Source: Salipaludibacillus neizhouensis
GTDB taxonomy: Bacteria > Bacillota > Bacilli > Bacillales > Salisediminibacteriaceae
DNA length: 64,000 nucleotides
Direction of reading: 5' to 3'
Assembly: GCF_002886185.1 (NCBI RefSeq)
Contig: NZ_KZ614146.1
Coordinates: 1,348,930 to 1,412,929, forward strand
This document shows, in pieces, positions 46,297 through 62,754 of the stretch; the stretch's first letter is position 1, and each line of letters opens with the position of its first letter. The notes below the pieces were generated by a model. That model did not search any database. It saw nothing but the letters and a program-made list of their open reading frames with translations, and was not told the DNA's origin. A program made the translations under genes and the position numbers.

Positions 46297-47295
46297 ATGA
46301 ATAAACCTAAAATTGGATTGTTATACGGAGATGCTGCAGGTGTTGGACCAGAATTAGTGGCAAAGGCTTTAGCGAAGAAAGAAATTTTAGAATCAGCAAC
46401 TTGGATCTTAATGGGTGATGAAAGGGTTTTTAATAAAGGTGCTAATATAGTTAGTAAAGAATTAAACTATCAAAAAGTAGAAAATATAGATGAGGTTAAT
46501 CCAGAGGTTTCTTCACTTTGGTTAATAGATACAAAAGTTACAGATCCTGACGAGATTGAAATGGGTGTTCTTTCAGAGAAATCTGGGAAGGCTGCTGGAG
46601 ATAATTTAATGTTTGCTTTAAACCTTGCAAAAGATAATAAATTAGATGGTCTTTCTTATGCACCTATGAACAAAAGTGCACTCTATAAGGGAGGCTACGA
46701 GTTCATGGATGATATTCATTTAGTAGCTTCTGTTTTTGGTCTCAAATCAGGGTTTAGTGAAGTAAACGTAATGAATGATGTATGGTTTACACGTGTTACT
46801 TCACATATTCCGTTAAAAGAAATTGCTGAAAATATTACAAAAGATAATGTTTTAGAAAGTATCTATTTTGCTAATGAAATTGTATCTAAAGCTGGTATTA
46901 CTCCCAGATTAGCTGTTGCAGGTTTAAATCCACATGCTGGAGATGATGGATTATTAGGAGACGAAGAAAATGACATTATTATTCCTGCAATTGAAGAAGC
47001 TAAAAGCAACGGAGTAAATGCATTTGGACCTTTCCCTGCTGACACGATGTTCTTACGATTAGAAAAAGAAGGATATAATTGTTTATTAGCTATGTACCAC
47101 GATCAAGCTCAAATTGGTATGAAAACGATGGGCTTTAATAAAGGTGTAACAATTAGCGGTGGACTTCCTATCGTTATTACAACTGCTGCGCATGGTACAG
47201 CTTTTGATATAGCCGGAAAAAACATAGCAGATCCTGGTGCATTTGAGGAAGCTTTAAAGATGAGTGTAAAACTGATTAATAATGGATATAAGTAA
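46297..47295 (+). CDS. PdxA2-like 4-phospho-threonate/erythronate-type dehydrogenase
   Basis: A 332-residue PdxA-family NAD-dependent oxidative decarboxylase. GDAAGVGPELVAKAL opens the protein. Metal histidines lie in DDIHLVASVF, GLNPHAGDDGLLGDEE and TTAAHGTAFDIAGK, and YHDQAQIGMKTMGF is characteristic. PdxA2 enzymes convert 4-phospho-D-threonate or 4-phospho-D-erythronate to DHAP and CO2. The DUF1537 kinase that usually supplies the phosphate is not present in the window. It is the last gene of the Tct operon. Confidence 0.87.
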   Translation: MNKPKIGLLYGDAAGVGPELVAKALAKKEILESATWILMGDERVFNKGANIVSKELNYQKVENIDEVNPEVSSLWLIDTKVTDPDEIEMGVLSEKSGKAAGDNLMFALNLAKDNKLDGLSYAPMNKSALYKGGYEFMDDIHLVASVFGLKSGFSEVNVMNDVWFTRVTSHIPLKEIAENITKDNVLESIYFANEIVSKAGITPRLAVAGLNPHAGDDGLLGDEENDIIIPAIEEAKSNGVNAFGPFPADTMFLRLEKEGYNCLLAMYHDQAQIGMKTMGFNKGVTISGGLPIVITTAAHGTAFDIAGKNIADPGAFEEALKMSVKLINNGYK

Positions 47296-47638: not shown

Positions 47639-48655
47639 ATGAAAAAAATTATAAATAATCCTGGTAATGTTGTTGAAGAAGCAATAGAAGGCTATATGTA
47701 TGCATACAAAGATTCATTAACAAAAGTCAACAATGTAAACGGAATCATCCGTAAGGATCTTAAAGATAAAGTTGCAATCATCATAGGTGGAGGAAGTGGA
47801 CATGAACCATTATTCCTTGGATTTGTCGGAGAAGGGCTTGCTGATGGAGTAGCAATTGGTAACGTATTCGCAGCACCAACGCCAAATACTATTCAAGACG
47901 TAGCAAAGTCTGTTGATCAAGGAAAAGGTGTTTTATTTATATATGGGAATTATGCAGGGGATGTTCTTAATTTTGATATGGCAACTGAATTATTAGAATT
48001 TGAGGAAATTCAAACACAAACCGTTTTAGTAGCGGATGATGTGGCATCAGCACCAGAAGAACGTAAAGGTGACCGCAGAGGAATTGCTGGAGATGTTGTT
48101 GTATTTAAAATTGCAGGTGCAGCATCCGAAAAAGGGTGGTCTTTACAGGAAGTAGTACGCGTAACACAAAAGGCAGCAGATCAAACATTTTCTATTGGTG
48201 TGGCTACAGCGCCAGGCTCCATTCCAGGAGAAGAGGAACCACCATTTGTACTAGGTGATGATGAAATCGAAATAGGTATGGGGATTCACGGAGAACCTGG
48301 AATGAAACGCACGAAACTAATGGAAGCAGATGATTTAACAGATGAGTTATTAGACATATTATTAAAGGAAAGTAAAATACAAACAGGTGATGAAGTAACT
48401 GTTTATGTAAACGGCTTAGGATCTACTACATTATTAGAATTACTTATAGTGAATCGTAGAGTAGCACAAATTTTAAATAAAAAAGGAATTAAAATATACG
48501 ATATGGATGTAAATAGTTACTGCACAACACAAGAAATGGGCGGGTTTTCTATTACATTTTTAAAATTAGATGATGAGTTAAAAGATTTATATGATGCTCC
48601 TGCCGATTCACCTTATTACAAAAAAACTCAAAAGATTGGAGAGGAAGTTAAATAA
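47639..48655 (+). CDS. DhaK-family kinase subunit (dihydroxyacetone or erythrulose kinase)
   Basis: A 338-residue DhaK domain protein. GGGSGHEPLFLGFVGEGLAD and the DhaK signature GNVFAAPTP are present. His217 in GMGIHGEPG is the residue that covalently binds the ketose substrate. With DhaL encoded next and no DhaM in the window, the kinase is probably ATP-dependent. In erythritol/threitol pathways the homologous kinase acts on erythrulose, which fits the isomerases that follow. Strong SD AGGAGG. It overlaps dhaL by one base. Confidence 0.92.
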   Translation: MKKIINNPGNVVEEAIEGYMYAYKDSLTKVNNVNGIIRKDLKDKVAIIIGGGSGHEPLFLGFVGEGLADGVAIGNVFAAPTPNTIQDVAKSVDQGKGVLFIYGNYAGDVLNFDMATELLEFEEIQTQTVLVADDVASAPEERKGDRRGIAGDVVVFKIAGAASEKGWSLQEVVRVTQKAADQTFSIGVATAPGSIPGEEEPPFVLGDDEIEIGMGIHGEPGMKRTKLMEADDLTDELLDILLKESKIQTGDEVTVYVNGLGSTTLLELLIVNRRVAQILNKKGIKIYDMDVNSYCTTQEMGGFSITFLKLDDELKDLYDAPADSPYYKKTQKIGEEVK

Positions 48656-49317
48656 TGTCTATTGAAACAGTAAACAGTGTGAACACAAGACAACTGAAAG
48701 ATATGTTTTTATATGTGGGGGACCAGGTAGTTGCATGTAAACCTTTACTTACTAAAATTGATAGTGCTATTGGGGATGGTGATCATGGCATAGGAATGTC
48801 TGTTGGTTTTACAAAGGCTGATGAGAATTTAAAAGCAAATGAATTTACATCAATTAATGATGTGTTTAAAACAATAGGCATGTCTATGATTTCCTCTATG
48901 GGTGGCGCATCAGGAATTATTTTCGGTACAATGTTTGTTGGAGGGATAAAAGGATTAGAAACGAAAGTTTCTTTAGATTTACCGTTATTAGCTGGGATTT
49001 TTAATAAAGCGTTAGAAGCTATAAAGCAACGTGGTAAAGCTGACCTTGGTGATAAAACTATGATTGATGCTTTGCAGCCTGCAGTTGAAGCTTTAGAAAA
49101 GAGCGCCGCAGCAAATGAAAGTTTAGTAGAAGGGCTTAGAAAGGCAGAGATTGCTGCACTTCAAGGAGTCGAAAATACAAAGCAGTATATTGCAAATTTC
49201 GGTAGAGCTAAATCTTTAGGAGAAAGAGCCATTGGTCATCAGGATGCAGGTGCTACTACGGTTTTGATTATTTTTAAATCAATGAAGGAATGGTTAGAAG
49301 GACAGGAAAATGGATAA
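48655..49317 (+). CDS. DhaL-family nucleotide-binding subunit
   Basis: A 220-residue DhaL/Dak2 domain protein. The magnesium-nucleotide motif IDSAIGDGDHGIGMSVG lies near residues 36-52. GGASGIIFGTMF and GDKTMIDALQPA are typical. It transfers phosphate to the ketose held by DhaK. The start overlaps the dhaK stop (TAATG), and the end overlaps the TIM gene by 8 bp, indicating tight translational coupling. Confidence 0.92.
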   Translation: MSIETVNSVNTRQLKDMFLYVGDQVVACKPLLTKIDSAIGDGDHGIGMSVGFTKADENLKANEFTSINDVFKTIGMSMISSMGGASGIIFGTMFVGGIKGLETKVSLDLPLLAGIFNKALEAIKQRGKADLGDKTMIDALQPAVEALEKSAAANESLVEGLRKAEIAALQGVENTKQYIANFGRAKSLGERAIGHQDAGATTVLIIFKSMKEWLEGQENG

Positions 49318-50083
49318 AATATGGGTTGGTACCAATTGGAAAATGACGAAGACGATATCTGAAGGAATCTCCTATACAAAGGAGCTTAAACATTTAGCTG
49401 AAAAGATTACTTCTGATATTGAATTGTTTATCATCCCTTCCCATACAGCTTTGATTGATATAAAGAGAGAGGTTTCTAATTCCAGGATCCGATTAGGTGC
49501 ACAAAATATGCACTGGGAAGATAACGGAGCGTATACTGGTGAAATCTCACCAAGAATGCTCCATGAAATAGGGATAGACTTAATTGAATTAGGTCATTCT
49601 GAGCGAAGGCAATATTTTAATGAAAATGATTATGAAATTAATAAAAAGATATTTGCTGCATTAAGATATGGGATGAAACCAATAATTTGTATTGGGGAAA
49701 ATATCGAACAAAAAAACAACTCTGCTTCCTATGAAACACTTGCTTCTCAACTAAAAATATGTCTAAACGGATTGACGGAAAAGGAGGCCAAACAGGTTCT
49801 TGTTGCTTATGAACCTGTTTGGGCAATTGGTGAAAAAGGAATTCCTGCTGATTCTAAATATGTAGGTGAAATACATACATACTTACGTCAAGTATTAGTT
49901 GAAATGTTTCCAGAAAGTGGTCTTCAAATCCCATTGTTGTATGGGGGAAGTGTAAACTTAGATAATTTTTTGAAATATATTGAGCAAAAAGATGTAAATG
50001 GTCTTTTTGTTGGAAGAACTGCTTGGAATATGGAGACGTTTACGGTAATGATCAAAGAGCTGGAGAAACATCTTTATAATTAA
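49310..50083 (+). CDS. Triosephosphate-isomerase-family protein (EryH/LerI-like)
   Basis: A 257-residue TIM-family isomerase. Active residues are visible: Asn9 and Lys11 in GTNWKM, His96 in ELGHSERR, Glu168 in AYEPVWAIG, and YGGSVN for phosphate binding. WVGTNWKMTKT differs from housekeeping TpiA (AGNWKMN) and resembles the TIM-like isomerases of erythritol pathways that act on erythrulose 1-phosphate. With DhaK/DhaL upstream and RpiB downstream, that role is favoured, although triose isomerisation is possible. Confidence 0.86.
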   Translation: MDKIWVGTNWKMTKTISEGISYTKELKHLAEKITSDIELFIIPSHTALIDIKREVSNSRIRLGAQNMHWEDNGAYTGEISPRMLHEIGIDLIELGHSERRQYFNENDYEINKKIFAALRYGMKPIICIGENIEQKNNSASYETLASQLKICLNGLTEKEAKQVLVAYEPVWAIGEKGIPADSKYVGEIHTYLRQVLVEMFPESGLQIPLLYGGSVNLDNFLKYIEQKDVNGLFVGRTAWNMETFTVMIKELEKHLYN

Positions 50084-50143: not shown

Positions 50144-50911
50144 TTAAATAATTTCTATATTTTCTCGAACAATTTTGTTATGAAGTTCCTTATCTAAAGA
50201 TTTATCAGTGATAATCGTATCGATTTGCTCACATGTTGCAAAGGTGGCTATTGAGCTTGTTCCTATTTTGGAATAGTCCACCATCGCAACAATCTTATGA
50301 GCCTTTTCAACCATAAATTTTTTTAATTCTACTTCATATACATTAAAGTCTGTAAGTCCTTCTTCTATACTAAATCCGCTAGCAGATGTAAACATAGTGT
50401 CAATATTGATTTTATTCAATATACTTGTTCCTAGTAATCCCTCTAATGCCATTGAACCCATTCTGACCATTCCGCCTACTAATATGACATTAATTCCAGG
50501 ATTCTCTTTTAACTCGATAGCAGACGATAAACCGTTAGTTACAACGGTAATATTTAAGTTGGAACCTCTTAATAATTTTGCCAATTCAAGAGCTGTTGTA
50601 CTTGCATCAAGTAGTATGCAATCTTTTTGTCTAATATGTTTAATGGCCTTCTGACCTATGATTACTTTTGAATCACGGTTTTTCTTTTCGCGTTCAGAAA
50701 AGCTCTTCTTTGAAGAGAAGTCTTCATTTAAAACAGCCCCACCATGAGTGCGAGTTAACAGACCTTCTTCCTCTAAAATATTTAAATCAGTTCTTAATGT
50801 GGCTTCGGAAACATTTACATCTTTTGCTAAATCTTTAACAGTTACTCGTTTTTTTTTCTCAAGTATATTTAAAATTAATTGTCTTCTTTCACTTGCGAAT
50901 AATTTATTCAT
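50144..50911 (-). CDS. DeoR-family transcriptional regulator
   Basis: A 255-residue DeoR/GlpR-type repressor. The N-terminal winged helix RRQLILNILEKKKRVTVKDL, AKDVNVSEATLRTDLNILEE and RTHGGAV is typical, and the C-terminal sugar-phosphate sensing domain has ILLDASTTALELAKLL, TNGL and GGMVRMGSMALEG. It lies convergent to the kinase operon and divergent from rpiB. It probably represses the three transcripts that carry AAAGTAAA-type tracts and responds to a sugar phosphate. Confidence 0.92.
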   Translation of the reverse strand: MNKLFASERRQLILNILEKKKRVTVKDLAKDVNVSEATLRTDLNILEEEGLLTRTHGGAVLNEDFSSKKSFSEREKKNRDSKVIIGQKAIKHIRQKDCILLDASTTALELAKLLRGSNLNITVVTNGLSSAIELKENPGINVILVGGMVRMGSMALEGLLGTSILNKINIDTMFTSASGFSIEEGLTDFNVYEVELKKFMVEKAHKIVAMVDYSKIGTSSIATFATCEQIDTIITDKSLDKELHNKIVRENIEII

Positions 50912-51113
50912 AATTACCCCTCTTTATTTTGATATTCCATTAATCATTTGAATATAAATAAAAACAAAAAAAATAAAAAGTTAAATAAAACATATTACCT
51001 GTATTATAAGTCTAATTCAGGTCTAATTCAAGTCAAATCTCTTATGAATTCGTATTTTCAGAGGTAAAAAATGATAATTAATTTTAAAATATAAATATAT
51101 CTTCGATAAAACA
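50912..51113. other. deoR-rpiB intergenic region
   Basis: A-rich non-coding DNA with AATAAAAACAAAAAAAATAA (50957-50976), which resembles the other operator-like tracts and may serve deoR autoregulation. Confidence 0.45.
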
Positions 51114-51162
51114 AAAGTAAACGAAAATAAACATTGAAAAATAAAAACAAATGTAATAAAAT
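51114..51162 (+). promoter_or_regulatory. rpiB promoter with DeoR-like operator
   Basis: AAAGTAAACGAAAATAAAC (51114-51132) overlaps the upstream edge of TTGAAA (51134-51139), which is 17 bp from TAAAAT (51157-51162). Confidence 0.6.
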
Positions 51163-51221
51163 AAGAATAGGGATAATAAATAAATAAAGTATATTAAAAG
51201 AAAACGAAAGGGGATTTTTAA

Positions 51222-51704
51222 ATGAAAGTTGGAATTGGTTGCGATAACAATGCTTTTGATTTAAAAGAAGTAGTAAAAAATTATATTGAAGAGTGTGGCC
51301 ATGAAGTTGAGGATTACGGTTGCTATTCACAAGATGCTATTGATTATCCAGATGTTGCCTTAAAAGTTTCAAAAGGAGTAAGTAATGGCGTTGTAGAACG
51401 TGGGATTTTACTTTGTGGTACTGGAATTGGAATGTGTATAGCAGCTAATAAGTTTCCTGGTATTCGTGCTGCACTTGCCCATGATGTTTATTCAGCTGAA
51501 AGAGCACAACTAAGTAACGATGCACAAATTTTAACAATAGGTTCTCAAATTATTGGATCCGAGGTTGCGAAAAAAGTTGTTTCTAGTTACTTAAATTCTA
51601 ATTGGTCAGGCGGTTCTCAACGTAAGGTAGATAAAATTGTTGAAATAGAAAATGAATATTTCACAGAGGTTAGCAAAGAATTATCTTCTAAATCTTGTAG
51701 TTGA
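51222..51704 (+). CDS. RpiB/LacAB-family sugar-phosphate isomerase (EryI-like)
   Basis: A 160-residue RpiB-fold aldose-ketose isomerase. The catalytic cysteine and anion hole are in LCGTGIGMCIAANK, and the conserved histidine in ALAHDVYSAERA. The N-terminal GIGCDNNAFDLK differs from the ribose-5-phosphate isomerase form (SDHAG). In erythritol/threitol pathways RpiB-like enzymes convert erythrulose 4-phosphate to erythrose 4-phosphate, the role favoured here. It starts the third transcript of the island. Confidence 0.88.
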   Translation: MKVGIGCDNNAFDLKEVVKNYIEECGHEVEDYGCYSQDAIDYPDVALKVSKGVSNGVVERGILLCGTGIGMCIAANKFPGIRAALAHDVYSAERAQLSNDAQILTIGSQIIGSEVAKKVVSSYLNSNWSGGSQRKVDKIVEIENEYFTEVSKELSSKSCS

Positions 51705-51769
51705 TTTACTAAAAGCATTAAAAAATATTTACTTTACCTATTAGGCAGTTTAAAAGGAGTGGGTCTCAA

Positions 51770-52726
51770 ATGAATCAATTAATATATGATTTTTTACATG
51801 TTACAGAATCGGCAGCATTAGCATCACTACCGTGGATTGGGACTGGGAACAAAATCGAAGCTGACAGAGCAGCAACAAACTCCATGCGAATCTTGCTGAA
51901 TAAAATATCAATGGATGGTGTTGTGGTGATTGGGGAAGGTGAAATTGATGAAGCGCCAATGCTTTTTATTGGTGAGAGAATAGGAACAGGAACAGGACTA
52001 AAAATCGATTTAGCTGTAGATCCCATTGATGGTACTACTTCTACTTCAAAAGGAAAAAATGATGCCATCACAGTTATTGCAGCTGCTCCTAAAGGTAAAT
52101 TACTCCATGCTCCAGATATGTATATGGAAAAAATCGCTACGGGGCCAAAGGCAGCAGGGAAAATAGATATTGATGCACCGATTGAAGATAATCTGTATGC
52201 GGTTGCAAAAGCTACTGGGAAACAAATAAATGAGTTAACGGTCGTCATCCAGGATCGAGAAAGACATCAACAATGGATAGATACCATTCGAGGATTAGGT
52301 GCGAAGACTTACTTGTTTGAAGAGGGTGATGTTATTCCCGCGATTGCAACTTGTATCGATTCATTAAATATTGATTTATTTTTAGGTATTGGAGGAGCTC
52401 CTGAAGGTGTATTAGCTGCAGTTGGAATAAAAAGCTTAGGCGGAGATATGCAAGCTAGACTTTTACCAAAAACTGATGAAGAGTATGAAAGGTGTAAAAG
52501 CATGGGGATTGTGGAACCAAATCAATCATTGAAACATGAACAATTAATAGGTACCGATAATTGTGCATTTGTTGCAACAGGTATTACAAGTAATATGTTG
52601 CTAAAAGGTATCCGATGTGATCAGAAAAAGTTTATTACTCATTCAATGGTGATAAATGGATTAGACAAAAGTTTGAGGTGCACGGAAACGGTGCATTCGG
52701 CACTTTTAAGCGAAACGATAGTCTAG
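51770..52726 (+). CDS. glpX: GlpX-type class II fructose-1,6/sedoheptulose-1,7-bisphosphatase
   Basis: A 318-residue metal-dependent phosphatase. Motifs are GEGEIDEAPMLFIGERIG and DLAVDPIDGTTSTSKG for metal and substrate binding, plus LGIGGAPEGVLAAVGIKSLG. Class II enzymes of this type accept fructose- and often sedoheptulose-bisphosphate. Beside erythrose-4-phosphate-producing isomerases and a transketolase remnant, a sedoheptulose-bisphosphatase role is attractive. A terminator follows the gene. Confidence 0.93.
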   Translation: MNQLIYDFLHVTESAALASLPWIGTGNKIEADRAATNSMRILLNKISMDGVVVIGEGEIDEAPMLFIGERIGTGTGLKIDLAVDPIDGTTSTSKGKNDAITVIAAAPKGKLLHAPDMYMEKIATGPKAAGKIDIDAPIEDNLYAVAKATGKQINELTVVIQDRERHQQWIDTIRGLGAKTYLFEEGDVIPAIATCIDSLNIDLFLGIGGAPEGVLAAVGIKSLGGDMQARLLPKTDEEYERCKSMGIVEPNQSLKHEQLIGTDNCAFVATGITSNMLLKGIRCDQKKFITHSMVINGLDKSLRCTETVHSALLSETIV

Positions 52727-52788
52727 TAGCTTTTTAAACTCCTTTATATAGAATAATCTACTAGTTTTGCGGTAAAGAGAAGTTAAAG

Positions 52789-52819
52789 AGCAATTGAGGA
52801 GATTCAGTTGCTTTTTTTC
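52789..52819 (+). terminator. Terminator after glpX
   Basis: AGCAATTGA pairs with TCAGTTGCT around a short loop, followed by TTTTTTT. Confidence 0.7.
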
Positions 52820-53032
52820 TTAAATTGTTTGTGATTAATTTGACTCAGTATCATCAGGATGTAACTTAAAAAAGTAAGCAAAGACTGAATACTATTAGGA
52901 AGAATAGTCATCTTCAATTAATGATTTTAAAAAAACTTATTCTTTCAAAAATAATCAATTATTGAATGAACTTAAAATGATAGGTTTTGACATAAATAGG
53001 TTTATAAAGAGGTTTTATGGGGAGGAATTAAT

Positions 53033-53547
53033 TTGATCAGAGACAAAGTGAATATTGATCAGTTATCTGTTCAAACAATGAACAATCGATGCAATTGAAA
53101 AAAGGAGCATATGTTATTTCTGAAGCAAATGAAAAGATCGATGGTCTTCTATTAGCTTCTGGATCTGAAGTGTCATTAGCGAGTGCATCTCAAAAAGGTT
53201 TAGAAAGAGAAGGGACTTTTGTTTCGGTTATAAGCATGCCGAATTGGGATCGTTATGAGAAACAACCACATTCTTATAGAGAAATTGTCATTCCGAAACA
53301 TGTCAAGGTACGTCTTGGAATTGAAATGGGCGTATCATTTGGTTGGGTAAGATACGTAGGAGATAACGGGTTCGTTCTAGCTATTGATCATTTTGGGGCT
53401 TCGGCACCTGGAGAGAAACTGATAGAAGAATACGGTTTTACTGTAGAAAATGTTATAGCGCGTTTTAAAAACTACTTTAACGTACACATTTTTAATGAGA
53501 TGAAACGGGGGCGGGAAAATGAAAAAAATTGCAGTTTTAACTGGTGA
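53033..53547 (+). pseudogene. Transketolase with a large internal deletion
   Basis: TTG 53033 after GGGGAGG begins IRDKVNIDQLSVQT and, with a frame change, IDAIEK, the N-terminal helix of transketolase. This is joined within an A run near 53100 directly to KKGAYVISEANEKIDGLLLA and the C-terminal domain (VSMPNWDRYEKQ, GFVLAIDHFGASAPGEKLIE). About 480 residues including the thiamine-diphosphate and pyrimidine domains are missing. It cannot be active. Its presence shows that the island once encoded a full transketolase. It overlaps the next gene by 29 bp. Confidence 0.9.
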
Positions 53548-54484
53548 CAGTGCTCCAGGAATGAATGCGGCCATTCGTGCTGTTGTACGACAAGGGATAG
53601 GTAAAGAAATGGATGTTTACGGTATCCAAGGTGGTCTTACAGGACTAATTGATGGGAATATTATTGAAATGTCACTGGAGATTGTATGTGACTTAATTCA
53701 TAGAGGAGGATCAGTGTTACAGTATTCACATTTTGAGGGTCTCGAGAATGTCGATATTCAACAAAAAGCATTAGATCAAATTGAAAACTTAGGTATCGAA
53801 GGGTTAATTATTCTTGGTGGAAATAGAACTATGAGAGCTGCAGAGAAATTAAGCTCCCTAGGAGTTCCTACGGTTGGAATTCCTGTAACGATAAATAATG
53901 ACATTGCTGGAACAGAATATACAATTGGATTTGATACAGCTGTAAATACAGTAGTAGAAGCCATTGATAAAATTCGATATACTGCATCATCAAATGAACG
54001 AACCTACGTTATAGAGGTGGCAGGAGGCCGAGTTGGGAATATAGCTCTTTGGTCAGGCGTGTGTACAGGAGCGGAATCGATTATTATTCCGGAAGCAAAA
54101 CATGATGTTGAAGATATTACTGACCGAATTCATCAAGAATATGAGAGGGGAAAAAACCACAATATTATTGTAGTTGCAGAAGGAGTAGGTGTAGGAGCTG
54201 GAAAAGAGTTAGGTAAGATAATCCAGGAAAAAACCAACTTAGATACAAAAGTAACAATTCTTGGACTTCTTCAACGTGGTGGCCCACCAAGTGCATACGA
54301 CCGAATGATAAGTAGCCAAATGGCAGCTGAATCTGTGGACTTATTAGTGGAAGGAAAGAAAGGTATCATGATTGGATTGAAAAACGGTAGATTGATTCAT
54401 ACACCTTTTGAGGAATTAGGAAAAGATAAGCCTGGGTTCGATCACAACACATACCAATTAGCAAGAAGTCTAGCAACATACTAA
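53519..54484 (+). CDS. Divergent phosphofructokinase-family protein, catalytic residues replaced
   Basis: A 321-residue PfkA-fold protein, normal in length. The N-terminal loop reads VLTGDSAPGMNAAIR, one residue shorter than the usual TSGGDSPGMN. The nucleotide/magnesium motif GGDGS reads GGNRT (100-104), the catalytic TIDND reads TINND (124-128), and the substrate-site EVMGR reads EVAGG. Thus equivalents of E. coli Asp103, Asp127 and Arg171 are lost, while AEGVG and QRGG are kept. Ordinary phosphofructokinase activity is unlikely; a regulatory or altered-specificity role is possible. It follows the transketolase remnant in the same transcript. Confidence 0.85.
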   Translation: MKKIAVLTGDSAPGMNAAIRAVVRQGIGKEMDVYGIQGGLTGLIDGNIIEMSLEIVCDLIHRGGSVLQYSHFEGLENVDIQQKALDQIENLGIEGLIILGGNRTMRAAEKLSSLGVPTVGIPVTINNDIAGTEYTIGFDTAVNTVVEAIDKIRYTASSNERTYVIEVAGGRVGNIALWSGVCTGAESIIIPEAKHDVEDITDRIHQEYERGKNHNIIVVAEGVGVGAGKELGKIIQEKTNLDTKVTILGLLQRGGPPSAYDRMISSQMAAESVDLLVEGKKGIMIGLKNGRLIHTPFEELGKDKPGFDHNTYQLARSLATY

Positions 54485-54499
54485 TTATAAAAAGTAAAT

Positions 54500-54655
54500 G
54501 GGGGAGTACATAAGTTAATTTTTCATTGAAACTGCAAGTCTTGAAACCTGACGTTATGGCAGGACAGAACATAAATACATCATAGATTTTATACTTGCTA
54601 TTCATTATCTTCGACAAGGAAAAATATATTGTTAAAGGTATTACATACTCCCACC
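54500..54655. repeat. 156-bp element with imperfect inverted ends
   Basis: GGGGGAGTACATAA (54500-54513) and TTACATACTCCCACC (54641-54655) are near-complements. The right end plus TCACGGACGGCATGA resembles the left end of the element at 15036. It may be a small non-autonomous element. Confidence 0.4.
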
Positions 54656-54839
54656 TCACGGACGGCATGAAGTAACAATTTCAATGTAGAAAATATATTA
54701 GCATTGTATTCAGTTTTGCCTTTCAATTATTCAAAGACATGACTTTTGATTAAGGGTTGACATCATTGCGATATTTTTTGCGAATGTTTACAAAGAAGCT
54801 AAAGGCCGTTCCCTTAATGTGCAAAGTAGTTTGTTTAAC
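54656..54839. other. Intergenic, no gene seen
   Basis: Non-coding sequence between the small element and the module D terminator. Confidence 0.35.
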
Positions 54840-57806: not shown

Positions 57807-60320
57807 TCACAATGTTTCGCCATATTCTATAAATAAATCATCTAACTGTGTATCAGTCGTTATTTTCAATACTTTTTTTCTAACACTCGTGTTGGACACG
57901 TTTAGTAAGTAATAGCGTTCTTGCTTATCTTTTCCATTTTGTTTTCGAATTAGTCCAATTCTCGGGAACAAAGTCCAATACTTCTCAGCATAACGAGCTA
58001 GACCTTTAATTTTTGGTACATTATCTTTTTTATTCGAATCATGTGGGTCAAATAAATCAAATACATACTTATCATTCTGCTTACGAATAAAGATGAAATC
58101 TGGGAACATTGGAGTAATTTTGCCACCATCTTCATACGGAACACACATAGACCAATATTTCCTGTCTGGGTTTCTTAACCATGCATACACGTCAGTTTTT
58201 TCAAGCATTGTTTTTACAACATCTTTTTCCCAACCATTAAGCTCAATTTTGAATTTACCTTCCTTATCAACGTAAATATGCTTTTCAATTTCAATCGATT
58301 TATCACTTACGGTATATCCAACAACCTCAGGAAGATAAAACGGTTTATCGATTGGATTTTCTACTTGTGAAAGAAGTCGCTTAAACTCAGACCCTATATC
58401 TTCTGTTTGATTGGCTATATCAAACTTCCAAGTTTCATATAAATCATTAAATTGATTTTCGCAGTAAGTAAATAATTTTTTCATCTGTTTTTCAGAATTA
58501 TATAAAACAAGCACTTCAAGTTTAAGTTGACGATAATTTTTTTCGACTTTAGTGTATTTAGACCAATAAAAAACATTTAGACCATCAAATAAACTCTTAA
58601 GCTTATCAAATGCCGTCGATATATCAACTACATCCGCTATTAATGAATACTGATTTGTTGTATCGACCACATTATCTCTCACACTAAATTCAATTTGATT
58701 GATACCAATATTTTCGATTGTTTCTCGGATTGAATCAAATTCACCATCAGTTTTCATTTCTTCTATTAATTCTCGCATTTTTGTAACAATTGCATCGTAC
58801 GCATTTTTCTGAGCTTCCATATCAATCTGATTCATAGTCAATAGCCTTGATAATCTAGAATACTGCTTCAAGAATGAAAGTGAACTTTTCCCTGGAACTT
58901 CATATGTAGTTATAAAATTAAGCTCGGGGAATAGTTCTTCAAATTCGGTACTTCTTACATAATCAACGAGCGTTCTCTTTGTCCCTGTTTCACCGGGAAC
59001 AAGAGCATCACTTTCTTGTAGAGAAATTACTACTCTATTAACCGTTTCTTGATCGTATCCAGGAAGGAACAACGAAACAGAGTTCAATTCAGAATTGGTA
59101 CTAATTCTTCGGGCGAGCGGTGTTCGAACCATACGACCAAGTAGCTGAGCAATATAAGTAGCATCGTTTGCCGTACGATAGGAAACCATTGTTTCAGCTC
59201 TAGGACAATCCCACCCTGTAGATAGATTCATTTTGAATAGAACAAATCGGATATTCTCATCATCTTGAATTCTATACGGTTCAACATATGGGATGACCTT
59301 ACCACCTATTTCCATAGATGATTTCAAATCAAAAGTTTGAATCAGTTCTCCATCGTATAACTCTCTTCCAAGATATTTTTCAATGGTTGCAACGATTAAA
59401 GCTAAATCTGTATTAGAAATATTATCCTTAGAACCGTCAGCAACTTGAATAACCATAATAGGTTTAACCAAAGTCTCATCTTGGCCATCTTCATAATATG
59501 ATTTCCATTGCTTACCTTTATTGTCCCAATCAGTTAATGCATCATTTAGCATCGTCACCTCATTATCTAATGCTAAAGCAGGATAGGCTATTTTAATTCG
59601 GTCTTTTATCAATCCCGACTCTCGAACATCCTCTGGCTTAAGCAATATCTTTAATGCAAGTGATTCACTTTGCTTAATAAGTTGCATAAATCTTTCGGGT
59701 GTCGCAGTAACCCCAATTGTTAGTGGCACAGGAGATAACTTATCTTCTACACTACCTAACAAAAACTTCTGCATAATTGACTGTGCCTTCTTTTCTGACT
59801 TGGCATTATATACAGCACCTCTATGGGCTTCATCGATAACCAAATAGAAATTTGAAGGATACTTTCTAGCTGTATTTTCAATCGTATCCCAAATTGTATA
59901 TTCTCGTTCATCTGAATATGAAGTGAGTTTCTTATCCGACCCTAACTTCTGTGTATTTAAGAAGTAGAAATGACCAAATTCAAAAAATTCCTTATCAAAC
60001 GCCTGTTCAATTTGTACTATTTGGTTTACATTTATCTTATTTGATTGAGCTTCAATTTTGCTTTGCGTTTGTTTATTTAACTCTGGCGAATCAGATAGCC
60101 ACAAAAATATTGAATTTTTATTACCTTCATTTACTTCTGAACCGAACAATATTTCTTCATATAGCTTTATAATTACAATTGTTTTCCCGGAACCTGTCGG
60201 AGAAGAAAGTGAGATTACTGAATTTTTACCAAATTGCTCATTGGTTGATTGTGCAAATTTAATATTTTCGTGAAGACTAACCAGTGCTTCCTCTTGAAAT
60301 GGAAACAATACTGTTCTCAT
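57807..60320 (-). CDS. Type III-like restriction helicase/endonuclease subunit (Res)
   Basis: An 837-residue superfamily 2 helicase. Walker A SSPTGSGKTIV lies at about 39-49, the DEAH motif in LVIDEAHRGAV, motif III in TIGVTATPERF, and motif VI in QLLGRMVRTPLARR. The C-terminal region has PDFIFIRKQNDKYVFDLFDP, where a type III nuclease normally shows PD...(D/E)xK; here the second part reads DLFD, so the nuclease core is non-canonical. It is shorter than typical Res proteins (about 950-1000). It lies 4 bp downstream of the methyltransferase in one operon. ATG with SD AAGGAG. Confidence 0.88.
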   Translation of the reverse strand: MRTVLFPFQEEALVSLHENIKFAQSTNEQFGKNSVISLSSPTGSGKTIVIIKLYEEILFGSEVNEGNKNSIFLWLSDSPELNKQTQSKIEAQSNKINVNQIVQIEQAFDKEFFEFGHFYFLNTQKLGSDKKLTSYSDEREYTIWDTIENTARKYPSNFYLVIDEAHRGAVYNAKSEKKAQSIMQKFLLGSVEDKLSPVPLTIGVTATPERFMQLIKQSESLALKILLKPEDVRESGLIKDRIKIAYPALALDNEVTMLNDALTDWDNKGKQWKSYYEDGQDETLVKPIMVIQVADGSKDNISNTDLALIVATIEKYLGRELYDGELIQTFDLKSSMEIGGKVIPYVEPYRIQDDENIRFVLFKMNLSTGWDCPRAETMVSYRTANDATYIAQLLGRMVRTPLARRISTNSELNSVSLFLPGYDQETVNRVVISLQESDALVPGETGTKRTLVDYVRSTEFEELFPELNFITTYEVPGKSSLSFLKQYSRLSRLLTMNQIDMEAQKNAYDAIVTKMRELIEEMKTDGEFDSIRETIENIGINQIEFSVRDNVVDTTNQYSLIADVVDISTAFDKLKSLFDGLNVFYWSKYTKVEKNYRQLKLEVLVLYNSEKQMKKLFTYCENQFNDLYETWKFDIANQTEDIGSEFKRLLSQVENPIDKPFYLPEVVGYTVSDKSIEIEKHIYVDKEGKFKIELNGWEKDVVKTMLEKTDVYAWLRNPDRKYWSMCVPYEDGGKITPMFPDFIFIRKQNDKYVFDLFDPHDSNKKDNVPKIKGLARYAEKYWTLFPRIGLIRKQNGKDKQERYYLLNVSNTSVRKKVLKITTDTQLDDLFIEYGETL

Positions 60321-60324
60321 TATT

Positions 60325-62733
60325 TTACACTCCTTGTATCATGAAATTATCTAAGTAATCTTTATACAGTTGATAACTATTGACACCCGAAAATTCTGAA
60401 GCCATTTCTGAAAAAGCTTCATTTGAATTCGTAACTATATAAAAATATTCAATACCAACGTGATTTTTCATTTCTTCTTTGAACTGAGCAAATGCATATT
60501 CATTAATTAGAACTGAGAAATTGCTTTCGATTGGGAAGATAAAATCAACATCTTCGACATTCTCTGGGCGCATTCCAACACAACCCGACTTAGCCCATAA
60601 AATAGGAAGAATACTCTCGAATTCATTTCCTAGCTCGACATCATCCTTGTTTAAAAAGTCTAATGAAAAAAACTCACAGTTCGATTTAAAACCTACTGAC
60701 TTCGCTCTTTCTTCTTGAAAGTAAGAATCTTTGGTACCGAGAATTTCAATACTCTTCTCAGAAATTCTTTTATAAGCCGATTTATCTTCTGTGACAATTA
60801 GAACCTCAGTGACATTATCTTTGGCCTCGAGCTCTTGATACCATTCTTCCTCATATGACAAATCAAATAGAATTGCTGTTGGCTTTTCATTGTCTATTGC
60901 AAAAGCGCCCGAGCTTACAAGTTTTGTGCTTGGAATTCTTTTCGTTCCTAATAGAGAAATAATCTTCTTCTTCTGTGCTACAGTCGTCACCTTGGAAGGC
61001 GATAAATAGTCAATTTGCTTAACCGTTCTTTTCTTACTCTCCATTCGATACTTATCAAGATAGTAATTTCCATCAATTGAAACTCCATCAGTATCTACAC
61101 CTAATATTGAGTGTTTCACACGTGGCCAAGTCACGGAACGACATATGCCGTTGTCCTCCCATACATCATCACCTGGCAAGTATCCTTTGCCTAGAAACTC
61201 GGTCTCCTCGCTCGAAGAAACTTCATTATTAGTTACTAAAATCCCTCTTCTGTTACCGCCGTCTTCTAAATTTAATAAGTTCAATGCATGTAAAGTTGTC
61301 CCACTTCCTGCAAAGAAATCAACTACAAGTCCATCCTTCTTATTACTCAAAAAGGATTTGAGAGTGTCATGAACAGCATATAAAGATTTTGGAAAAGGAA
61401 ATTGTTTGTTCTTAATAATTGAACTGACAATCTGTGTCCCATACTTATTAGCGTCGTAAAGATTTTTCTTCCAGACAGTTGTTTTTCTCTTAGAGGAACT
61501 TTGGGTACTAACAACAATCTTTGAACCATCATCTCTTCGACCCACAACACTATAATCTCCATTTTCTACCTTCACTATTGAAGGAGCAGTTACATATTTT
61601 ATTGTATATGGTTGAAATTTATTTTTTTTATTAAAGTTAACCTGTACATAATCCTCATCTACTGCTAATTGAAGGCTTGGTCCAGTTAACCCCCAAATCA
61701 TTTCTAGACCTTCTTCAGTCACAGGAAACACAGCTGTACATCCATTAATTTGCGGGACACTATTTCTATCTACCTCAATTGTTATTGGTTCACCAATTTT
61801 AAAGATTTTTTTTGTTTCATTTTCAACATAGATCGGATAGAATTGATTTTTTCGCGAGGAACGAACAGATGAGGGTTCACTTCGTCTCAAATAAGGCCAT
61901 CTTATCTCCTCTAGCCCTCCTTCATCTAACATTTCTTGAGCTCCACCATTCCCGAAATATACCACCAAAAGATATTCATCTACTTGTGAAAGTCGTTGTT
62001 CCCGAGCTTTTCCTTTGGGATTTATAGTAATATTAATGATTTGACGTTCTGAGCCTTTGAATAGCTCTTCTAGCAACATACCAAGAGCAAACAATTCACT
62101 GTCGTCAATTGCGATAATTAAAACAGAATCATCTGGCTTCAAAAGTTTTTTTGCTAATTCTAAACGACGTTTCATAAAAGCTAACCACTTACTATGTCGC
62201 CATTCGTCATTACTATCTACAAAACTATTATTGTATTTCCAATCTCTAGCTCCTGTATTATACGGAGGATCAATATAAATGCAGTCGACTTCTCCAGGAT
62301 ACAGATAATCTAATAATTGAAGGGCATGATAATTATCTGCTTCAATTAGCATATGCCAAGCAGCATCTTTTGAACCTTTTTGCACTGAATCAACATGTTT
62401 TAACACAGGAAAGACAGCTTCTCCAAATCTACGAATTTGAACTACTTTCCGTTTTTCTTCTGAAAATAACTCACCTGTCTTCAAGTTTCTTAGTGTGACC
62501 TCGTTATCATTTATATCTGTAACTAGATATGTATCATCAACAGACTTGTTTTTATAGCAGACCGTCATACCTACTTGTAATTCTGAATTGTATAATAAAG
62601 TCTTCTCTGGTAAGTGTTCTTCAAAGACTAAACCAAACTTTTTCTTTTTCGTCAAATATGCAACTTCTTCAGACAATCTTGCTCTAAGGTGTACATCTGA
62701 AATTTGATTAACCAAGTCATTTATTGCTGCCAT
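60325..62733 (-). CDS. Type III-like site-specific DNA methyltransfer subunit (Mod)
   Basis: An approximately 802-residue N6-adenine/N4-cytosine methyltransferase of the Mod class. Catalytic motif DPPYNTG lies near residue 155, and the AdoMet-binding FxGxG motif in VVDFFAGSGTTLHAL comes later, the beta-class order. It modifies the recognition sequence and provides target recognition for Res. Start 62733 is preferred (7 nt after GGAGG); the frame extends to TTG 62754. Methylation specificity cannot be read from the sequence. Confidence 0.9.
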   Translation of the reverse strand: MAAINDLVNQISDVHLRARLSEEVAYLTKKKKFGLVFEEHLPEKTLLYNSELQVGMTVCYKNKSVDDTYLVTDINDNEVTLRNLKTGELFSEEKRKVVQIRRFGEAVFPVLKHVDSVQKGSKDAAWHMLIEADNYHALQLLDYLYPGEVDCIYIDPPYNTGARDWKYNNSFVDSNDEWRHSKWLAFMKRRLELAKKLLKPDDSVLIIAIDDSELFALGMLLEELFKGSERQIINITINPKGKAREQRLSQVDEYLLVVYFGNGGAQEMLDEGGLEEIRWPYLRRSEPSSVRSSRKNQFYPIYVENETKKIFKIGEPITIEVDRNSVPQINGCTAVFPVTEEGLEMIWGLTGPSLQLAVDEDYVQVNFNKKNKFQPYTIKYVTAPSIVKVENGDYSVVGRRDDGSKIVVSTQSSSKRKTTVWKKNLYDANKYGTQIVSSIIKNKQFPFPKSLYAVHDTLKSFLSNKKDGLVVDFFAGSGTTLHALNLLNLEDGGNRRGILVTNNEVSSSEETEFLGKGYLPGDDVWEDNGICRSVTWPRVKHSILGVDTDGVSIDGNYYLDKYRMESKKRTVKQIDYLSPSKVTTVAQKKKIISLLGTKRIPSTKLVSSGAFAIDNEKPTAILFDLSYEEEWYQELEAKDNVTEVLIVTEDKSAYKRISEKSIEILGTKDSYFQEERAKSVGFKSNCEFFSLDFLNKDDVELGNEFESILPILWAKSGCVGMRPENVEDVDFIFPIESNFSVLINEYAFAQFKEEMKNHVGIEYFYIVTNSNEAFSEMASEFSGVNSYQLYKDYLDNFMIQGV

Positions 62734-62754
62734 CATTCTTCCTCCAATTTCCAA

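Follow-up and report, generated by a model that had tools for sequence, protein, structure and literature searches.

Phosphofructokinase (PFK) is a textbook control point. In eukaryotes, non-catalytic PFK-fold partners, namely the regulatory halves or subunits of fungal and animal PFK and the alpha subunit of plant pyrophosphate-dependent PFK (PPi-PFK), are believed to regulate their catalytic partners. The protein described here is likewise a PFK-fold protomer, and its sequence closeness to these partners goes no further than the family; unlike them, it is bacterial and has a gene of its own within a catabolic operon. Among the open-licence papers listed, none described a dedicated non-catalytic bacterial PFK, and for D127 or D103 mutants and pseudo-PFKs the matches listed included one relevant passage, in PMC10339645.

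Plasmid pBM19 of Bacillus methanolicus carries the cassette glpX-fba-tkt-pfk, together with rpe and methanol dehydrogenase. Excerpts of four B. methanolicus papers name its PFK as an assigned pathway gene, and neither these passages nor a literature search yielded an activity assay of the plasmid PFK (PMC3905653, PMC8119897, PMC7092467, PMC4342826). We compared this system with the window, that is, the whole stretch of 64,000 nucleotides of Salipaludibacillus neizhouensis DNA that was analysed, and with the locus L047 of Metabacillus bambusae. pBM19 PfkA is the closest relative of the window and L047 PFKs outside that pair, forms the next branch of the tree and has the tkt-pfk order in common with them. 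It differs from both in retaining the catalytic residues, and the plasmid annotation shows no link to DhaKL or RpiB-like genes. Set against the pBM19 cassette, the window keeps tkt only as a remnant and has a more diverged glpX (51-52%); in L047 glpX and tkt are intact, and tblastn of the M. bambusae contig gave no match for pBM19 Mdh, Fba or Rpe. The features of the window are listed in Table 1.

Table 1. Features in and around the pfkA-like gene of the window, with the altered motifs of its product.
Feature	Position	Strand	Evidence or remark
PdxA-family dehydrogenase	46297..47295	+	family search
DhaK-like kinase subunit	47639..48655	+	54% to L047 DhaK
DhaL-like kinase subunit	48655..49317	+	39% to L047 DhaL
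TpiA-like triose-phosphate isomerase family protein	49310..50083	+	family search
DeoR-family regulator	50144..50911	-	56% to L047 counterpart
RpiB-like sugar-phosphate isomerase	51222..51704	+	D-erythrulose-4-phosphate isomerase model 144.7 bits, below cut-off 240
glpX-type class II fructose-bisphosphatase	51770..52726	+	51% to L047 GlpX, 52% to pBM19 GlpX
tkt 5' remnant	53003..53101	+	matches L047 7755-7855, 74.5% over 106 nt
tkt 3' remnant	53097..53454	+	matches L047 9399-9756, 77.8% over 360 nt
Open frame over tkt C-terminal remnant	53089..53547	+	152 aa, Transketolase_C_1; overlaps pfk start
pfkA-like gene, altered active site	53519..54484	+	321 aa; family search, tree, substitution comparison
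Glycine-rich nucleotide loop TGDSAPG	53540..53560	+	one residue shorter than TSGGD(S/A)PG; window-private
GGNRT	53816..53830	+	D103N common to window and L047; G104R window-private
PVTINND	53882..53902	+	G124V and D127N (general base), both common to window and L047
EVAGG	54014..54028	+	M169A and R171G, window-private

The window also carries a gene for a TctC-type receptor protein in addition to the PdxA-like, DhaK and DhaL genes. Relative to L047, about 1.54 kb of tkt is absent between the two remnants, which lie in different frames, and no fba match better than E 0.02 was found in the interval from glpX to pfk. A promoter and terminator scan of 50900-54700 gave no excess, with 18 promoter-like sites against a shuffle mean of 15.6 and no terminator-like site. 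Farther along, two large frames (57807-62754, minus strand) resemble by eye the subunits for restriction and for modification of a type III restriction system.

The L047 PFK lies in an operon-like run encoding a DeoR regulator, an alcohol-dehydrogenase-like protein, an RbtT/DalT/CsbX transporter, an RpiB-like protein, DhaK, DhaL, GlpX, a full-length transketolase, PFK and a TalC/Fsa-type protein, so that full-length tkt, glpX and a talC-type gene are all retained around it. Like its window counterpart, the L047 RpiB-like protein has a sub-threshold match to the D-erythrulose-4-phosphate isomerase model. By tblastn, relatives of the window DhaK, DhaL, DeoR, RpiB-like and GlpX proteins lie on the M. 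bambusae contig; the window PdxA, TpiA-like and three transporter proteins had no match there. The link to four-carbon (C4) sugar genes proposed in the initial annotation holds for DhaK, DhaL and RpiB-like genes, which are found in both species along with GlpX and transketolase sequences, and fails for the TpiA-like gene.

The initial annotation had called a full-length open PfkA-like frame in the window, and its coordinates proved exact. The frame runs from an ATG start over 321 codons without an internal stop, and its product matches PF00365 over its full length (6.8e-91; residues 3-276 on profile positions 1-277 of 277). GGNRT, TINND, EVAGG and TGDSAPG, the four motif changes reported there, were all confirmed at their sites. 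Against the NCBIfam equivalog model PFKA_ATP (TIGR02482, cut-off 371.35) the window protein scores 332.1 bits, below the cut-off, and L047 scores 400.3, above it. L047 reads GGNGS, PVTVNND, EVMGR, TGGGDAPG and LQYAHFENF at the corresponding motifs. Thus four replacements, R72H, D103N, G124V and D127N, are common to both proteins, and only the window copy has G104R, M169A, R171G and the loop deletion. Further changes of the window protein at invariant sites are G108A, H160N and D175N besides R72H and G124V, and those outside the active-site list include D12S, T66S, F76L, D155Y, D175N and G268A.

We take Asp103 to be the Mg ligand of PfkA, and Gly11, Arg72 and Gly104 to be ATP contacts; at positions 11, 72 and 104 the window has D, H and R, and L047 has G, H and G. 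Met169 and Arg171 are presumably contacts of fructose-6-phosphate (F6P), and these positions are A and G in the window and remain M and R in L047. Two more F6P contacts, Arg162 and Arg243, belong to the adjacent subunit; the former is retained and position 243 is Lys in the window, L047 and pBM19 PfkA alike. The marks of PPi-PFK specificity, Asp at 104 and Lys at 124 together with D103 and D127, are absent from the window protein (R104, V124, N103, N127). Compared with canonical PfkA (Bacillus subtilis 4a3s, Geobacillus stearothermophilus 3pfk/4pfk), the window protein has the same fold, length and invariant effector positions and is without the general base and the Mg and ATP contacts. An AF2 model (mean pLDDT 86.3, pTM 0.84), whose closest solved structure is the B. 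subtilis PFK 4a3s (TM 0.93), makes a PFK fold plausible for the window protein and says nothing on its function; AF2 often yields confident folds for damaged proteins.

A scan of a species-level genome collection, a list from which records very near the window's own are possibly absent, returned one relative, the L047 protein, which is 69% identical to the window PFK over 319 residues. pBM19 PfkA is 78% identical to L047 and 64% identical to the window protein. Further relatives come from Bacilli: L050, L052 and L053, with tkt-type and fba genes next to them, and L064-L067, whose surroundings gave no match to a cassette gene. Like pBM19 PfkA, all of these retain the catalytic residues: R72, D103, D127, M169 and R171 are present in pBM19 PfkA, and R72, D103, D127 and R171 in L050. 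In a tree of 56 of 63 rows, which left out 7 near-duplicates and predates L078, L079 and L082, the window and L047 proteins form a clade (support 100/98) that is joined first by pBM19 (97/81) and then by L050 (100/99). The window PFK thus branches with that of pBM19 and apart from the housekeeping PFKs, and its end branch measures 0.91 against 0.14 for L047. This position points to an origin from the type of cassette found in pBM19 (glpX-fba-tkt-pfk), L059 (rpe, glpX, fba, tkt, pfk) and genome G846 (glpX, fba, tkt, pfk, rpiB-like, rpe), and indicates that the window PFK is a descendant of the PFK of such a transketolase/PFK cassette.

Searches with L047 at a strict cut-off matched 9 of 397 genomes of the order and 8 of 398 of the class, the window genome being among both. 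In the M. bambusae family they matched 2 of 80 genomes, and in the genus, whose 21 genomes are included in those 80, they matched 1. No other form with Asn at both 103 and 127 occurred among the matches examined from these searches. The initial annotation had suggested testing for a clade of GGNRT and TINND sequences; what we found is a double-Asn (N103/N127) clade of two members, the window and L047, in which GGNRT, EVAGG and TGDSAPG belong to the window alone. The window genome encodes three further PFKs, 50, 46 and 39% identical to the window PFK and with all motifs intact, and M. bambusae has two canonical PFKs elsewhere in its genome. The window PFK is 50-52% identical to the canonical PFKs of its genus, and none of 34 further family genomes, 7 of which belong to the genus, gave a match above 52% identity, which marks the gene as accessory; the best matches in 29 of the 34 retain GGDGS, TIDND and EVMGR. 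Among the genus paralogues (L002-L023) there are two or three other PFKs per genome with GGDGS, TIDND and EVMGR intact, and one paralogue type has GGDSQGMN in the first loop.

The substitutions of the window protein exceed ordinary PFK variation. In a panel of 64 other PFKs, position 127 is Asp in all 64, and Asn is found in the window and L047 alone; R72H, present in both, occurs in none of the 64. R171, which is Gly in the window, is likewise retained in 64 of 64, and D103 is Asp in 62, the exceptions being L057 and L082 with Asn. By leave-one-out, the window differs at 17 and L047 at 6 of 89 invariant positions, whereas the other 64 PFKs, with about 90 invariant positions each, show a median of 0 differences and a maximum of 3. 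Because L057 and L082 have D103N in PFKs that are intact in other respects, this change was dropped as proof of inactivity, and taken alone it is a weak mark. In L057 (L063 3315-4307) the motif reads GGNGSY, the other motifs are intact and the context by eye is accA-pfk-pyk; here either Asn103 is tolerated or there is a sequencing error. L082 (L083 9881-10852) has GGNGT, is 90% identical to pBM19 PfkA and lies in a methylotrophy-type cassette of genome G846, on a contig of 389,561 bases; this cassette also contains a frame resembling pyruvate kinase by eye.

We then sorted the changes at invariant sites by site class, using general active-site and ADP/PEP effector-site residue lists of the family. 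Against 61 other PFKs, the window is changed at 8 of 16 active-site, 0 of 8 effector-site and 12 of 68 other positions, and L047 at 4 of 16, 0 of 8 and 4 of 68, respectively. Active-site positions are enriched in changes over all the rest (Fisher, p=0.006 for the window and p=0.03 for L047), in counts that include the changes on the shared stem. On the window branch alone, counted with 64 other PFKs at a 95% criterion and omitting 14 positions whose ancestor was undetermined, the changes fall on 5 of 13 active-site, 0 of 9 effector, 13 of 71 other invariant and 55 of 206 variable positions. None of the contrasts tested on this branch was significant (p 0.14 to 0.35); active-site against other invariant positions gave p=0.14. 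A relaxation confined to the active site of the window branch was therefore dropped, the significant version of the comparison being the one that counts stem changes too. Other invariant positions were not significantly less often changed than variable ones (p=0.20), and nothing clearly indicates that the remainder of the window protein is still protected. The effector list also includes positions 55 and 58, which are less conserved; they are E and C in the window, where G is found in 49 and 59 of 64.

Codon models were fitted to sets of four, five or six sequences hand-picked from the cassette clade and its neighbours, the six-sequence set comprising 318 codons. With six sequences, the L047 branch has an omega of 0.056, and omega=1 is rejected (p=1.4e-4); the smaller sets gave 0.051 (LRT 7.1, four) and 0.041 (LRT 14.5, five). 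L047 thus stayed conserved after the shared losses, which supports a pseudoenzyme retained in M. bambusae and suggests that the protein has a job that does not need normal catalysis. The shared stem has an omega of 0.376 against 0.067 elsewhere (p=0.015, six sequences), not distinguishable from 1 (p=0.61); this estimate is unstable, at 0.179 with four sequences (LRT 0.9 against the rest, not significant) and 3.5 with five. In the four-sequence fits of the L047 branch, omega=1 was rejected neither for the tkt end (126 codons, omega 2.07, LRT 0.0) nor for glpX (LRT 0.2), indicating that fits of this size have little power. GlpX was of little use as an orthologous control, its window branch being saturated (dS 29), and the DPVEGT motif of L047 GlpX was discarded as a sign of decay since L059 GlpX has it too.

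Our best reading, in which we place about as much trust as doubt, is a rare PFK pseudoenzyme lineage of two members found, with the window copy its more eroded member. The gene has probably become a "dead" enzyme that was retained for a different task, though the window copy may be decaying. The ancestor would have been a PFK with catalytic residues, in a tkt/PFK cassette of the pBM19 (ribulose-monophosphate) type. R72, D103, G124 and D127 would then have been replaced before the window and M. bambusae proteins diverged, inside a C4-sugar operon or on the way to it, so that phosphoryl transfer to F6P was presumably abolished or crippled. That catalysis was lost at this point and the protein retained as a non-catalytic PFK-fold subunit has an even chance of being right. 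The M. bambusae form would since have been conserved for a job without normal catalysis, and the window copy would be a further-eroded member of the clade. The protein would still fold as a PFK protomer with the invariant ADP/PEP effector-site residues retained, and may serve as a non-catalytic PFK-fold subunit or a metabolite sensor, conceivably in mixed tetramers with housekeeping PFK.

Within such an operon, erythrose-4-phosphate would be made and passed to transketolase and transaldolase, and F6P would be needed from the fructose-bisphosphatase (FBPase). Lowering PFK flux while GlpX runs could avoid a PFK/FBPase futile cycle. The fuller version of this idea, that the cassette was recruited to C4-sugar use, that PFK became a liability beside FBPase and that it turned into an effector-sensing subunit restraining the housekeeping PFK tetramer, strikes us as doubtful. 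The L047 clade, the C4 neighbours and purifying selection on L047 make a pseudoenzyme tied to a C4-sugar/pentose-phosphate operon reasonable; that much of the initial annotation's proposal stands, although D103N, which it had listed, is found alone in the intact L057 and L082. A dead PFK beside FBPase and transketolase, if real, would mean that a C1 cassette was rewired for C4 use by disarming, not deleting, one enzyme, and would offer a direct test of PFK regulation through subunit mixing.

A tentative alternative is that the window copy is decaying: the cassette function would have been lost in this lineage, tkt deleted and pfk left to accumulate damage in an open frame. On this view the shared losses would reflect either a change of function at an earlier time or a loss that was only beginning. 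The adjoining tkt, a deletion remnant in two frames, fits this, as do the two full-length transketolases encoded elsewhere in the window genome, the accessory nature of the gene and the 17 changed invariant sites, some of them outside the active-site list. The window-branch omega is low (0.095 with six sequences, 0.082 with four and 0.077 with five), and omega=1 is strongly rejected (p=1.3e-12, six sequences), which together with the 321-codon open frame speaks against decay. We dropped this low value as proof of function, since the broken tkt 3' remnant, open over 126 aligned codons, gives practically the same one in the four-sequence set (0.079 against 0.082 for pfk); a recent loss of constraint on the window pfk may thus have occurred. 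Decay also sits poorly with the invariant effector-site positions, none of which changed on the window branch, and leaves the conserved M. bambusae copy with D127N and R72H unexplained. Strain-unique decay without homologues was rejected as the whole story, since L047 shares four active-site replacements; of the decaying gene unique to the strain that the initial annotation had considered, the uniqueness falls and the decay may hold for the window copy. Even if the window copy merely decays, pBM19, M. bambusae and the window resemble three steps by which a cassette enzyme is lost.

It is improbable that the protein is a working phosphotransferase whose chemistry or substrate has changed, for instance to a different sugar phosphate of the C4 route or to a different donor. 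The place of the gene within a sugar-phosphate operon, its retained invariant effector-site positions and the occurrence of Asn103 in other PFK-fold proteins (L081, L024) would suit such an enzyme. According to an excerpt of PMC10339645, Asp127 takes the proton of the 1-OH and is needed whatever the substrate, and in the pair this residue is Asn, for which the panel offers no precedent. R72 is His as well, and in the window R171, M169 and G104 are also gone. The new phospho-sugar specificity offered earlier as an alternative is thus not supported, being unlikely with the general base gone. We regard an ordinary active PFK of the transketolase/PFK cassette with tolerated substitutions as highly improbable, since D103N in two otherwise intact PFKs and the L047 score above the PFKA_ATP cut-off are outweighed by the sub-threshold window score and by D127N, R72H, G124V, G104R, R171G, M169A and the loop deletion in combination.

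Several other PFK-fold proteins deserve mention. pBM19 PfkA itself (L048 10001-10969) is altered at sites that are invariant elsewhere (S105T, G116E and G124A), and judging by these the methylotrophy PFK may be kinetically unusual. M. bambusae encodes a protein (L081 928-2139, minus strand) with GGNGS, a PKTIDND-type motif (TIDND) and EVMGG that scores above the cut-off of a PPi-PFK subfamily model, which places Asn103 and Gly171 in a different branch of PF00365 as well; L024 is a PFK-family protein with GGNGT and TVDND. A second M. bambusae protein (L080 1408-2292, minus strand; 294 aa) is a degenerate PFK-fold protein (PF00365 1e-20) without GGDGS and TIDND. Its gene adjoins a frame that resembles by eye a histidine kinase, and it is a candidate for another PFK pseudoenzyme family.
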